Shown: positions 3,407 through 58,754 of the stretch, one piece after another | Numbering within the stretch: position 1 is the first letter of the stretch | How the letters are laid out: every line of letters starts with the position of its first letter | Assembly (NCBI GenBank): GCA_900315255.1 | Contig: OMYH01000007.1 | Location: forward strand, 32,512-96,511 | Source: an uncultured Eubacteriales bacterium | GTDB taxonomy: Bacteria > Bacillota > Clostridia > Oscillospirales > Acutalibacteraceae | Reading direction: 5' to 3' | DNA: 64,000 nucleotides | Made by a program: the position numbers and the translations under genes | The notes under the pieces: generated by a model | What the model saw: the letters and a program-made list of their open reading frames with translations, nothing else | Told to the model about the DNA's origin: nothing | Databases searched by the model: none

Positions 3407-3484
3407 TAAACAGTAAAAGTGGGTGCTTGAACTTGCGCCCGAACATCTATAATGCTTCAATTAATTACTGAAAGGGAGAGTAAA

Positions 3485-6442
3485 ATGAAACATACAAAGG
3501 CTTTATTGTCTGCGGTTTTGTCTGTAGCATTGCTTGCAAGCGCTGCGTCGCCTGCATATGCCGCAACACAGACTAACGCAGCTTCAGGTGCTCAGGTAAC
3601 AGTTAACACATCTTCCGCAGACGCATCTACGTTCTCGTGGGACAATGCTACTGTATACTTCCTGCTTACCGACAGATTCAAGAACGGCGATACTTCAAAT
3701 GACGGAGCGTACGGACGTATGAAAACGGTTAGCGGTGACAGCAGAGCTACATTCCACGGCGGTGACTTTGCAGGTATTACACAGGAGATAGAGGCAGGCT
3801 ACTTCAATGACCTCGGTGTTAACGCTATCTGGCTGACAGCTCCTTACGAGCAGCTTCACGGCTATCTTCTCGGCGGAGATGACGGCTCGCATTTTGCACA
3901 CTATTCCTATCACGGATATTATGTTCTTGACTATACAGAAGCTGATCAGGCATACGGCAGCAAGGAAGAATTTAAAAAGCTGGTAGACACTGCTCACGAA
4001 CACGGTATCCGTATAGTAATGGATATAGTTATGAACCACGCAGGCTACAACAATATGATCGATATGGACGAGTATGGCTATGGTACTCTCAAGGACGGCT
4101 GGAAGCAGGTTTACGATTCCGGTAACTTTGATTCGTATCACTCACACATAGATTATACAGCTAATACCTGGACAACATGGTGGGGCGGCGACTGGATACG
4201 TGCAGGACTTCCTGGATATACTCCCGGCGGCAGCGACGAACAGACACGTACGCTTGACGGACTTCCGGACTTTAAGACTGAGCAGACATCTTCTGTCGGA
4301 CTTCCTCAGCTCCTTATTACAAAGTGGACAAAGGAAGGCACACTTTCAGCAAAACAGTCTAAGTACGGTACGTCAAATACTGTAACAGGCTACATTTCCA
4401 CATGGCTTGCAGAGTGGGTAAGAGAATTTGGTGTTGACGGTTTCCGCTGCGATACTGCTAAACACGTTGCATTCGGAGATTGGAAACAGCTTAAAGACGC
4501 AGGTACAAAGGCACTTGCAGAGTGGAAAGCAGCTAACCCCGACAAGAAGCTCGACGATCTCCCATTCTGGATGACAGGCGAGTGTTGGGATCATAAGCTT
4601 GGTTATGGCTATGACGGTTACTTTACCCAGGGCGGTTTTGACTCCATGATCAACTTTGAAACACAGGGCGGCGGCTTGCTTGCTGCAGGAAAGCTTGCCG
4701 GTGTTTATCAGAATTACGCAGATTCTATTAACACAAATGATAAATTCAATCAGCTTTCTTATATTTCTTCACATGACACAACACTTGCAAGAGGCGATAA
4801 GGATAACCAGTATCACCTCGGTTCGGCACTTCTCATGCTTCCGGGCGGCGTACAGATCTACTACGGCGATGAAACAAGCAGAGATTTCGTTCCGGGAATT
4901 CCGGTTACAGGCGACGGTCACGCTGTAAGAAGCGACATGAACTGGGATTCAATGGATAAAGACCTTCTTGCACACTGGCAGAAGGTCGGCACATTCCGTA
5001 ATAACCATATTGCAGTCGGCGCAGGCGCAAACGTTGCTCTGACATCTACAAGCGGTACTGCATTCGGCAGAACATACGACAAGAACGGCATTACAGATAA
5101 GATCGCAGCAGTAGTTGACGCTGACGCAAATACAAGCGTTACAATAGATGTAAAAGGTATATTTGATGACGGCGCTACACTTAAAAACTGGTACGATGAG
5201 GAAACATACGATGTATCGGGCGGCAAGGTAACAGTAAACAGCGGCGCTCACGGTACTATTCTTCTTGAACAGGGCGAGAATGATTCCGTTAAGGCTAAGG
5301 TCGAAGGCGGAGCAACATTTGATACAAACGAGGAAGTTACAGTTACACTTGAGGGCGTTGATTCGGCAGTTCTCACAATAGACGGCGTCAAGAAGATCAA
5401 CGTTAAGAATGGTGACAAGGTAACTATCGGCGACGCTTCATATCCCGGCGATACGGTTGAGGTCACACTCACATACACACACCCCGCAAAAGGCGAGCTT
5501 ACAAAGAAGTTCTCCTTCAAGAAGAACGGCAGCACAGACGGCAAGGGCGGCGGACGCTCCGATTCGGCTATCGTTCACGTTTTGACCGATCTCACAGGTG
5601 TAAATCTCTACGCTTGGCAGGGAGACGGCGAAACAGCTACAAAGCTCGCAGGCGAATGGCCCGGCACACCGCTTTCTTCAAAGGATGACGACGGCTGGTA
5701 TGTAATGGATCTCAAGACCACCGATAAGTTCAACGCTATCGTGGATCAGGAAACAAACAAGCAGACTGAAGATCTTAAGGGTCTCCAGGGCGAAACATGG
5801 ATCATCTGTGATTCAAGCTATAAGACAAAAATCTTCACGGATAGGGTCGAGGCGCTCAAGGCATCCGGCAAGGATATTCCGGAATCTGATTTTGATAAGC
5901 TCAAGCAGGAGTGTAAGTCGATTAAGCTCCTTGACACTGCAGGCTATTCTGCAGACAGCTACGCAGCAGCTATGGCAGTAGTAACAGAGGCGGATAAGCT
6001 CATTTCTCAGGGTAAGAGTGAGGCTGATCCCGCAGCAGTAACCGAGATGTATAACAAGGTCAAGGCTGCAAAAGAAGCTCTTCTCAGCGGTCAGAAGATC
6101 GATACACAGACCGATACGTCAACTGATACGGGTACGGATACTACAACAGATACAGGCACAGACACAAGCACAGATACCTCAACGGATACATCAACCGACA
6201 CAAGTACAGACACAAGCACTGATACATCAAGCGATATTATTGTAACTCCAGGCAAGGGCGATGTAAACAACGACGGTAAGGTTTCTCTTAAGGACGCTTC
6301 TCTGGTACAGAGAGCAGACGTCGGATTGGAAACACTCAGTGCAGCACAGCAGAGTGCAGCAGATATGAACGGTGACGGAGCAGCTAATCTGAAGGACGCT
6401 TACATCATTCAGGCAGCTGTAACCGCAAATTACGGTAAATAA
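3485..6442 (+). CDS. secreted dockerin-bearing alpha-amylase (GH13, MalS-like)
   Basis: This 985-residue protein hydrolyses internal alpha-1,4 bonds of starch by family assignment. A signal peptide spans residues 1-26. The GH13 domain (about 35-490) keeps DIVMNH (180-185), FRCDTAKH with nucleophile D323, GECWD with acid/base E366, and HD 430-431. The DTAKH and GECWDHKLGYG stretches resemble the E. coli MalS group. A beta-sandwich region follows, then a CBM26-like starch-binding module (about 693-790, with YAWQGDG and WPGTPL), a helical stretch, a Thr-Asp repeat linker (about 874-917), and a C-terminal type I dockerin (about 925-985) with two GDVNNDGKVSLKDA / DMNGDGAANLKDA calcium loops. It should dock onto a cohesin scaffold. 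GGGAG sits before the ATG. Confidence 0.95.
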   Translation: MKHTKALLSAVLSVALLASAASPAYAATQTNAASGAQVTVNTSSADASTFSWDNATVYFLLTDRFKNGDTSNDGAYGRMKTVSGDSRATFHGGDFAGITQEIEAGYFNDLGVNAIWLTAPYEQLHGYLLGGDDGSHFAHYSYHGYYVLDYTEADQAYGSKEEFKKLVDTAHEHGIRIVMDIVMNHAGYNNMIDMDEYGYGTLKDGWKQVYDSGNFDSYHSHIDYTANTWTTWWGGDWIRAGLPGYTPGGSDEQTRTLDGLPDFKTEQTSSVGLPQLLITKWTKEGTLSAKQSKYGTSNTVTGYISTWLAEWVREFGVDGFRCDTAKHVAFGDWKQLKDAGTKALAEWKAANPDKKLDDLPFWMTGECWDHKLGYGYDGYFTQGGFDSMINFETQGGGLLAAGKLAGVYQNYADSINTNDKFNQLSYISSHDTTLARGDKDNQYHLGSALLMLPGGVQIYYGDETSRDFVPGIPVTGDGHAVRSDMNWDSMDKDLLAHWQKVGTFRNNHIAVGAGANVALTSTSGTAFGRTYDKNGITDKIAAVVDADANTSVTIDVKGIFDDGATLKNWYDEETYDVSGGKVTVNSGAHGTILLEQGENDSVKAKVEGGATFDTNEEVTVTLEGVDSAVLTIDGVKKINVKNGDKVTIGDASYPGDTVEVTLTYTHPAKGELTKKFSFKKNGSTDGKGGGRSDSAIVHVLTDLTGVNLYAWQGDGETATKLAGEWPGTPLSSKDDDGWYVMDLKTTDKFNAIVDQETNKQTEDLKGLQGETWIICDSSYKTKIFTDRVEALKASGKDIPESDFDKLKQECKSIKLLDTAGYSADSYAAAMAVVTEADKLISQGKSEADPAAVTEMYNKVKAAKEALLSGQKIDTQTDTSTDTGTDTTTDTGTDTSTDTSTDTSTDTSTDTSTDTSSDIIVTPGKGDVNNDGKVSLKDASLVQRADVGLETLSAAQQSAADMNGDGAANLKDAYIIQAAVTANYGK
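6105..6235 (+). repeat. Thr/Asp/Ser linker repeat within the amylase gene
   Basis: This is a degenerate DNA repeat coding for T-D-T-S-T-D-T units between the helical region and the dockerin. Such linkers are typical spacers in cellulosomal and amylosomal proteins and are prone to copy-number change. Confidence 0.8.
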
Positions 6443-8741: not shown

Positions 8742-11309
8742 CTATGGTGCAAGGTTTGTTATTTTTCCGTTTTTGATACCGAAGACTCCTGCTCCTACAG
8801 AATAGTTTTTCTCTCCGTTATTATCCCAGTTATTTGATCCGTCATTGAAGCAGGTTAAAATATTAGCTGCATTATCAAGCCTGATCGTGTATTTGTGGGT
8901 GTATCCGTTGTAGTTGTTTGACTGTTTCATCGGTACTCCGGGTACGGCGGTCCACGTGCCGTTCAGTTTGTAGTGGATATTTGGATTGTTATATCCCGCA
9001 TAATAGATCGTGACGGCTCTCTTGACGTAGAGGGTGTAAATATTCGTCATGATTTCGGTGCCGTCCGTATCTTTTACAAATGCGTAGATCTCGTTGTTTC
9101 CTTCCTTTGTAACGGAGAATGACTGAACGGAGCTTGTTGTGTAGCCGCTGTCAAAGGTTGTGTTTCCTGCGGCTTTACATATGATCCTGTACTGCGATGA
9201 CGCACCGAAAGGACTTGTCACGGAAACCGTTACACTGTCGCCCTGCAGCGCCTGCGTTTCGTCAGTATATGTCTGCTCGAAGCTTATTCTGATGTCTGCG
9301 CCGGAATCAAAGCCGTCGTAAACAGGCGTTACTATCATATCTGTCGTAACGTTGCCGAGGTCTGCCGACCAGCCTGCTGCAGCGCCGTATTTGTCGGAAT
9401 AGGGGAGTTCGGGCGTATGAGCTGCTTTGCCGTATGGTACAAATTCAAAGCCTATGTTATTGCCGCTGAGATCCTTGAACTGCACCATGAAGATATCCTG
9501 CTCGGGAGTATAGGCGGCCGTGTCACGTTTCGCTAAGACTGATCTGACGTACTCAAAGTCCCCCTGCGGGAACGAATCGTAAACCTCGCGGCCTGTGGCG
9601 TCAGTGTGCAGCTCATTGTATGTATTCTGGAGGGTCATCATAAAGTACATGAATTTGCCGACATCGCATGAGTAGAGCGGATCGTAGTATTGACTGAATT
9701 TCCTGAATGCAGCTTTGGTCGTATCCCAGCCGACAGCTTCGGCAGTCCTGTATATCGTGTAATTCATGGCGTCTAGTGAGTATTGACCGTCATGCTTTGC
9801 GAAGGTGTTGTCGTATGATATCTTGCTCGTCTTACTGATGTAATTGATGTATTCAGAGGTGGGATAAATATCAAGAGTACCTCTGGGGTCGAATGTGCTG
9901 CCGTCTGTATATTGTGAAATAACGTATACTGCCTTGAACTCCGCTGTTGCTTCTCCGTCGAATCTCCATGGGTACATGAGGTCGAAGTTGTGACCCATCT
10001 CGTGGAACGCTACTCTTGCTTTGCGGTTTTCCAGACACCTTGCACGGGAGGAGATCGCCATGTATTTATGCGACCATTTGATCGGATTTATCATACCAAG
10101 TGCCTGGTACTGAGTGACATACGGCTCGTCTGATGAGAGATAGAATATCTTGTCGCCGTTATGCGGAATACCGCCCATCAGATCGGCAAGCATTTCGTAA
10201 CCATCGTCAATTTCGCCGATCCATTCGTAGATTTTGCTTTCGTCCAGGTCGGCAACGTCTGATTTAAACATGATCAGTCCGATGTGTTCGCCCTCGAATT
10301 TGATCTTATCTGTCGGTTCGCTGTTATAGTCAACCTTTTCGATCATCAGGTCGTCAAAATATGCCGTGCCTTTTCCGTGAAGACCGCACACGATGTCAGC
10401 CTTGCCCTGACTGTCCGCTATAAAATAGCAGGTGACCTCGACCCAGTCAAACGTACCCTTCAGCCAGTTGTTGTTCGGGTCGATCATATATCCTCTGCCG
10501 AAATTCTTTGTTATGCCGTCATCAAGATAGCCCAGATAGTAGTTGCCGCCGAGGATACTGCCCACGTCTAAGAAGGCACCATTCTGATGATCATCTGCGG
10601 TAATATCCTTTCCTCTGATCTTGCCCGTGAGCTTGTATTCTCCCAGTGGTTCAAATCCCGAAAGCTCGTTCGTAACACGGCTCACTACGGTGTTCTGATT
10701 GTATAACTTGAGCGATGTTGAGTTGTTTACACCCGTGTATTGATCGGCATACATATTGCCTCTGTCCTCGTAGGGAGTCCAGTTATCGGGGAATACGTTC
10801 TCCCTCTCAAAATCTCCGTTCAGGTTGTATTGTATTTCGGACAGAGAGATCACAACAGGGGGTTCTTCGGTGTCGGATTCGGTACCAAAAATATTGGAAT
10901 AAGTATCTGTATCGGTATTCTTGCTGTCGGTATCGCTGTCACTGCCGAAGCCGAGCGGTACTCTGTCGCCAATGCGGAAACCATCTTTGTTGACAGGATA
11001 GTCTGTTTCGATCCCGAGAGTATACTTTTGAATAAGATATGCGTCGCTGAGCGTGCAGCTGTTATCGCCGTCAACGTCACAAATGGGGTACTGCGATTCT
11101 GCAATGAATTCAAGCCCTACGTCTACCCGCTGTATGACAGACGCATCTTTGAGCGTTACCGTGCCATCGCTGTTGATGTTGCCGAGAATATATAAATAAG
11201 CGGGTTCGTCGGTTTCATCTGCGGCTGCCCTTGAAAATGTGGGTAGGGAACAGGCGATAAGAATGACTGACAGAAAAACACTTATTGCTTTTTGGAAATA
11301 GTTGTTCAT
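8742..11309 (-). CDS. secreted dockerin-bearing M60-like metallopeptidase with CBM25-like module
   Basis: This 855-residue protein has a signal peptide (about 1-28), then an N-terminal type I dockerin (about 36-105) with NINSDGTVTLKDA and DVDGDNSCTLSDA loops. A Ser/Asp/Thr linker follows, then a jelly-roll-like module (about 158-335) of CBM4/9 character. The peptidase domain has HEMGH at 436-440 and candidate third ligand E453 or E457 in FDGEATAEF, matching the HExxH-x(8-28)-E pattern of M60/enhancin-like enzymes, many of which cut mucins. After an Ig-like stretch, a C-terminal module (about 765-855) with YYAGYNNPNIHYK, GVPM, CFNDGSNNWDNN and NYSVGAG looks like starch-binding CBM25. GGAGG precedes the ATG. 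The pairing of protease, dockerin and starch module is unusual. Substrate is unknown. Confidence 0.88.
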   Translation of the reverse strand: MNNYFQKAISVFLSVILIACSLPTFSRAAADETDEPAYLYILGNINSDGTVTLKDASVIQRVDVGLEFIAESQYPICDVDGDNSCTLSDAYLIQKYTLGIETDYPVNKDGFRIGDRVPLGFGSDSDTDSKNTDTDTYSNIFGTESDTEEPPVVISLSEIQYNLNGDFERENVFPDNWTPYEDRGNMYADQYTGVNNSTSLKLYNQNTVVSRVTNELSGFEPLGEYKLTGKIRGKDITADDHQNGAFLDVGSILGGNYYLGYLDDGITKNFGRGYMIDPNNNWLKGTFDWVEVTCYFIADSQGKADIVCGLHGKGTAYFDDLMIEKVDYNSEPTDKIKFEGEHIGLIMFKSDVADLDESKIYEWIGEIDDGYEMLADLMGGIPHNGDKIFYLSSDEPYVTQYQALGMINPIKWSHKYMAISSRARCLENRKARVAFHEMGHNFDLMYPWRFDGEATAEFKAVYVISQYTDGSTFDPRGTLDIYPTSEYINYISKTSKISYDNTFAKHDGQYSLDAMNYTIYRTAEAVGWDTTKAAFRKFSQYYDPLYSCDVGKFMYFMMTLQNTYNELHTDATGREVYDSFPQGDFEYVRSVLAKRDTAAYTPEQDIFMVQFKDLSGNNIGFEFVPYGKAAHTPELPYSDKYGAAAGWSADLGNVTTDMIVTPVYDGFDSGADIRISFEQTYTDETQALQGDSVTVSVTSPFGASSQYRIICKAAGNTTFDSGYTTSSVQSFSVTKEGNNEIYAFVKDTDGTEIMTNIYTLYVKRAVTIYYAGYNNPNIHYKLNGTWTAVPGVPMKQSNNYNGYTHKYTIRLDNAANILTCFNDGSNNWDNNGEKNYSVGAGVFGIKNGKITNLAP

Positions 11310-46867: not shown

Positions 46868-47058
46868 CTAAGGAGACACTGATTAAATCGAGTGCCGAAG
46901 TTGCGCCGTCAGATTTTTAGGCAAATTGTGCGAAAAATCCGCAGGAATACTGACGTATTTCAAGGCAGAAGCACCGATCGAGCCGGCAGGCGAGACTAAA
47001 GATGCAAGCAAATTTGGTGCTCAGTCCGAAGGACGTGATTTAATCAGTGGTTCCCTAA
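46868..47058. mobile_element. MITE-like element, copy 2 (longest)
   Basis: The body is 46872-47054 with CTAA on both sides (46868-46871, 47055-47058), an exact target duplication that differs from the TTAA of the other copies. The ends are GGAGACACTGATTAAAT and the inverse of GGAACCACTGATTAAAT. It has an extra GC-richer insert (about 46966-46999) not present in copy 1. It separates the tryptophan transporter operon from aroQ. The rest of 46754-47123 holds small stem-loops only. Confidence 0.88.
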
Positions 47059-58642: not shown

Positions 58643-58754
58643 TTAAGGAGACACTGATTAAATCGAGTGCCGAAGTTGCGCCGTCAGATTTTTAGGCAAA
58701 TTGTGCGAAAAATCCGCAGGAATACTGACGTATTTCAAGTCAGTGGTTCCTTAA
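58643..58754. mobile_element. MITE-like element, copy 3 (internally deleted)
   Basis: The body is 58647-58750 flanked by TTAA on both sides. The left 90 bases match copy 2 nearly base for base; then an internal deletion joins TATTTCAAG directly to TCAGTGGTTCC, so the right end has lost the ATTTAA part of its inverted repeat. It lies between tex and the YhfC gene. Confidence 0.88.

Follow-up and report, generated by a model that had tools for sequence, protein, structure and literature searches.

The gene at positions 8742..11309 (minus strand) of the window, the whole 64,000-nucleotide stretch of DNA that was analysed, encodes a secreted modular metallopeptidase of 855 amino acids, P0001, in which an M60-like peptidase domain is joined to a dockerin and to a CBM25 module. 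The reading we favour, with a probability of roughly 0.55, is that P0001 is an amylosome-type zinc protease of the M60 fold, plugged through its dockerin beside an amylase, held on starch by its CBM25, and cutting the protein that surrounds the granule. The architecture, the catalytic residues, the conserved starch-binding residues and the shared dockerin class on which this reading draws are all visible at the sequence level.

Modular organization of P0001

P0001 is a complete open reading frame flanked by plus-strand genes, and therefore probably has its own transcript. All of its modules lie on the minus strand. The translation starts with a signal peptide, read from the sequence (approximately residues 1–28; 11226..11309), in which LIAC at residues 17–20 is also compatible with a lipobox that the paralogues lack. 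It is followed by a dockerin of the class LKDAS...LSDAY (residues 40–107; 10989..11192), delimited by Pfam and by the dockerin alignment, and by an Asp/Thr/Ser-rich linker evident in the translation (residues 108–147; 10869..10988). A CBM4/9-like jelly-roll module (approximately residues 148–327; 10329..10868), tentatively assigned from its fold and from profile matches in some family members and a relative, precedes the HExxH peptidase domain (approximately residues 328–595; 9525..10328), which was delimited by Pfam, the family profile and a domain model. The C-terminal part consists of an Ig-like, beta-rich region (approximately residues 612–762; 9024..9476), based on model strands and weak Y_Y_Y/PKD matches in the family, and the CBM25 (residues 765–851; 8757..9017), based on Pfam and an alignment to the solved CBM25 2c3v.

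The combination of dockerin, CBM4/9-like module, HExxH peptidase and CBM25 in one secreted protein, as described in the earlier note, is confirmed, and paralogues and other species are built alike. Because the layout is conserved across paralogues and species in 14 members, chance or artefact is ruled out as its source. Every member, as far as its contig reaches, has the CBM4/9-like module, the peptidase, the Ig-like region and the CBM25.

The C-terminal module, for which a CBM25 had been suggested, was identified as such by profile search with 65.9 bits (E 4.5e-18; cut-off 27.3). Residues H779, W786 and W828 align with H26, W34 and W74 of 2c3v, which we take to be starch-binding residues, and the His/Trp/Trp set is retained in full in 13 of the 14 members. 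The second copy in genome G403 (L095, 6102-8678) retains its CBM25 profile match and no longer has the His or the second Trp. Genome-wide, the only CBM25 modules above the cut-off are those of the five family copies. A Pfam scan of P0001 itself gave no match for the CBM4/9 module; the CBM4/9 profile matches four of 11 family members and exceeds its cut-off in one distant relative (31.8 bits), and by fold the module of P0001 resembles CBM16/22/4 structures (E ~1e-5).

The peptidase domain and its sugar-contacting positions

P0001 contains the zinc motif HExxHx(8,28)E. The segment HEMGH (9990..10004) supplies the predicted zinc ligands H436 and H440 and the catalytic E437, and E453 (9951..9953) the third ligand. 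In an alignment of 24 homologues, nine columns are identical throughout, including H436, E437, H440, W448 and E453, and the ligand set H436/H440/E453 that had been predicted is accordingly invariant. The alternative third ligand, E457, was discarded because this position varies between E, D and N among the same homologues. In a model of the isolated domain, the HExxH and E453 lie in two successive helices, which is the arrangement described for M60 enzymes (PMC9266454).

A fold search with this domain-only model (mean pLDDT 64) ranked 5ev7, a Bacillus protein of unknown function, first and the M60 enzyme BT_4244 second and third, followed by aureolysin, other gluzincins and AM0627 (M60). The matches to BT_4244 and AM0627 have probabilities of 0.96–1.00, yet their E-values exceed 1e-3 in a search with a model of pLDDT 64. 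The structure models are of modest confidence throughout (pLDDT 64–66); the full-length model of P0001 returned no peptidase fold among its top 50 matches, and such matches were obtained with the domain alone. A search for a direct sequence match between the peptidase of P0001 and a solved structure found none.

The match of P0001 to Peptidase_M60 (PF13402) amounts to 17.3 bits over residues 433–480, below the gathering cut-off of 25.8. A profile of the family's peptidase domain retrieves relatives in the same taxonomic family and class with E-values of 1e-16 to 1e-35, and three of the five relatives tested pass the PF13402 cut-off (L097, 31.9 bits; L160, 27.4; L162, 35.5); the other two, L164 and L165, fall below it. 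Relatives that join CBM4/9 and M60 exceed the Pfam cut-offs. By homology, and not by the Pfam cut-off, we take the peptidase of P0001 to be a divergent member of M60. The earlier assignment to an M60-like peptidase holds through the profile relatives and the zinc motif; the score of P0001 alone does not reach it.

Characterized M60 enzymes contact GalNAc through a Trp and an Asn (W321/N347 in AM0627, W570/N595 in BT4244, W752/N775 in ZmpB and W747/N770 in ZmpC; PMC9325726). W321 of AM0627 lies four residues before the first His of the motif, since E326 is the catalytic residue of that enzyme. The Asn was equated in our own alignment with the position four residues after the third ligand, a putative equivalence based on the E-x-x-x-N found at the third ligand in most Clostridia relatives. 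At the Trp position all 14 family members have R, A, D, G or M, and at the Asn position E or D; the relatives mostly have F and N, respectively. With both residues replaced in every member, a mucin-type GalNAc pocket is not conserved.

This result bears on the suggestion that the protein works where starch meets mucus, which is now disfavoured. A mucinase-type enzyme at a starch–mucus interface would agree with the characterized M60 enzymes, which are mucin O-glycopeptidases (PMC3267712, PMC9325726), and with the frequent joining of M60 to CBMs (PMC3267712). It is weakened by the replacement of the two residues that grip GalNAc and by a CBM of the starch-binding type, not CBM32 or CBM51, and we regard it as very improbable.

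The changed GalNAc pocket of the family could also be an altered rather than a lost sugar pocket. P0001 might then belong to the starch complex as an O-glycopeptidase that reads plant sugars, for example on hydroxyproline-rich or alpha-galactosylated plant glycoproteins, instead of mucin GalNAc. Enzymes of the M60 fold generally read glycans, an M60-like protein of a plant pathogen, Svx, has been proposed to cut extensins (PMC9266454), and the CBM4/9-like module suggests plant-polysaccharide surroundings. The replaced sites, however, show no conserved new aromatic, and we hold this alternative to be unlikely.

Dockerin class and the starch-degrading neighbourhood

The dockerin of P0001 comprises two calcium-binding repeats, as in type I dockerins. 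It scores 18.3 bits alone (residues 45–96; cut-off 22.9) and reaches 31.1 bits when neighbouring matches are counted in the scan of the whole genome, and it aligns with the other dockerins of the genome, which bears out the N-terminal dockerin of the earlier note. The genome has 73 dockerin matches; among the 72 dockerin proteins and fragments extracted (a few short or out-of-region fragments being left unclassified), eight contain DAY in a repeat, and all eight share the pattern LKDAS / L.DAY in the alignment. They are six family proteins, one of them cut by a contig end, a GH13-CBM26 amylase, and a CBM26 protein on contig C110. The first repeats read LKDASVIQRVDVGLE in P0001 and LKDASLVQRADVGLE in the amylase. 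Most of the remaining dockerins read like AKDS..IQR...NKDAL.ILR. Upstream of the window, on contig C70 (L067, 3263-18605), five consecutive dockerin genes, including those of serpin and LRR proteins, all carry this common dockerin class.

The amylase gene (3452..6442, plus strand), identified by Pfam and the dockerin alignment, lies 2.3 kb from P0001 and encodes a secreted protein whose true start is probably the internal ATG at 3485. Its C-terminal dockerin, LKDAS...LKDAY (6254..6415, plus strand; Pfam and dockerin alignment), is the nearest to that of P0001 apart from the closest paralogues of P0001. The C110 protein (471 amino acids; CBM26 31.6 bits, dockerin 32.5 bits) adjoins an amylase gene. 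Across the genus, most orthologues of the GH13-CBM26 amylase from other species retain the DAS/DAY pattern. The other GH13 proteins of the genome have dockerins of other classes, so that the DAY class marks starch-binding proteins and not all amylases. In-frame stops in amylase orthologues do not point to recoding, as they precede the true start codon at the four loci inspected. No upstream motif common to P0001 and the amylase was found; the shared blocks are those among the C63 and C122 paralogues. Cohesins were found in two single-cohesin proteins on C52, in a C81 dockerin protein with two matches, and as a weak match on C26. Two adjoining small genes (L144, 3443-5109) each encode a single cohesin together with a hydrophobic segment at the C-terminus, and their products are possible cell-surface anchors.

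That so rare a dockerin class is common to the P0001 family and to CBM26 proteins supports a starch complex. Together with the CBM25 of every member, it strengthens the part of the earlier note that placed the protein in such a complex. A starch-binding module and an amylase-type dockerin on each copy argue for probable proteolysis at starch that is being digested. P0001 would be a secreted, active zinc endopeptidase of the M60 fold, whose N-terminal dockerin plugs it into the cohesin or cohesins that also take the CBM26 amylase and the CBM26 starch-adhesion protein; the proteolytic activity, the substrate and this common cohesin partner are inferences. The starch-degrading, amylosome-type part would coexist with many further dockerin proteins. 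The C-terminal CBM25 would retain the enzyme on granular starch, where it most likely cleaves the storage-protein matrix or granule-associated proteins, and their removal would expose the starch to amylases. For ruminal amylolytic microbes, the protein around cereal starch has been described as an obstacle that limits starch digestion, and a relieving effect of added protease is reported (PMC10162983). If our reading is true, bacteria would counter this limit on ruminal starch digestion directly, with a protease tethered both to starch and to an amylase complex, and M60 peptidases would extend from mucus to plant storage material.

Family distribution and comparison with known systems

Five family copies are present in this genome, which belongs to a gut relative of Ruminococcus, namely P0001, a tandem of three on C63, and one on C36; a sixth family dockerin, on C122, consists of the dockerin start only and is cut by the contig end. 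The 14 members occur in seven of 22 genomes of the genus. A search of 398 genomes sampled from the taxonomic family gave matches in this genus and, apart from it, a single distant protein; the peptidase family is thus almost restricted to one genus. The amylase is present in 17 of the 22 genomes, against seven for the peptidase family, which is therefore an accessory and not a core part. The named contigs among the family matches belong to RUG-series assemblies (uncultured Ruminococcus or Clostridiales), which we take to be from the rumen.

Several features of individual copies were observed. The reading frame is interrupted in two of the five copies here (C63a, L070 2680-5666; C36, L071 995-4322) and in one G400 member (L033, gene start), through either assembly error or true breakage. 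In C36-type members (L071 995-2095, L034), additional domains that match nothing in Pfam lie between the dockerin and the CBM4/9 module. An element of about 100 bases with matching inverted ends, AAGGAGACACTGATTA...TAATCAGTGGTTCCTT, occurs in the window at 1999-2094, 46870-46965 and 58645-58739 and in about 40 copies genome-wide (98–100% identity), several at contig ends and one directly upstream of the C63b peptidase gene; it looks like a recently active MITE.

In the tree, the CBM25 members group in a single clade (support 0.999) comprising several older lineages that each occur in more than one species. Such lineages better fit varied external substrates than a housekeeping or remodelling peptidase that acts on its own complex, or on starch-stuck enzymes of rivals, by linker trimming or complex release. 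For the latter speak the long Asp/Thr/Ser linkers of several dockerin proteins here and the dockerin serpin gene on the same contig, whose presence means that protease control belongs to the system; we consider this alternative quite improbable. Returning to the protease of granule protein, a wider and tentative proposal is that a genus-specific, retargeted M60 expansion forms a protein-stripping branch of an amylosome, possibly separated by dockerin class from the large dockerin system that coexists with it. Whether two dockerin systems in one cell are separated by specificity could be put to the test here.

The fusion of M60 with CBM25 and the changed GalNAc pocket are new in the open-access literature that was searched. 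Dockerin-bearing peptidases as a kind are already known from the reports on Doc14 of R. bromii (PMC9112005) and on P. cellulosolvens, in which 71 proteins combine dockerins and putative peptidases with an undefined role (PMC5590126). As in P0001, a peptidase sits on a cohesin scaffold in the cellulosomes of Pseudobacteroides cellulosolvens and R. flavefaciens (PMC5590126); their peptidases, unlike P0001, have no reported starch-binding module, and the one named family is a papain-like cysteine peptidase (PMC5590126).

The M60-like (PF13402) enzymes BT4244, AM0627 and ZmpB resemble P0001 in their HExxH...E gluzincin site, their secretion and their joining to CBMs. P0001 differs in that CBM25 replaces CBM32, CBM51 or CBM5/12, in the replaced Trp and Asn, and in scoring below the Pfam cut-off alone. 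A table of M60-like domains in 415 proteins contains CBM32, CBM5/12, CBM51 and two dockerins and no CBM25 (PMC3267712, Table 4). The Clostridia CBM4/9-M60 proteins L160–L163 share the N-terminal jelly roll and the homologous peptidase domain, but lack both CBM25 and dockerin; the M60-like L164 has a dockerin, at its C-terminus, and no CBM25. Most of L160–L164 retain the Asn, with Phe at the Trp position, in contrast to P0001.

The R. bromii amylosome differs from the present system in that the text of PMC9112005 contains no M60 or CBM25 protein, and in that starch-type dockerins are here a minority of the 72. Both systems have dockerin amylases with CBM26 and starch-binding dockerin proteins, which in R. 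bromii include Sas20/Doc22 (PMC9112005). Doc14, like P0001, combines a signal peptide, a peptidase and a dockerin, and it elutes with the amylosome (PMC9112005).
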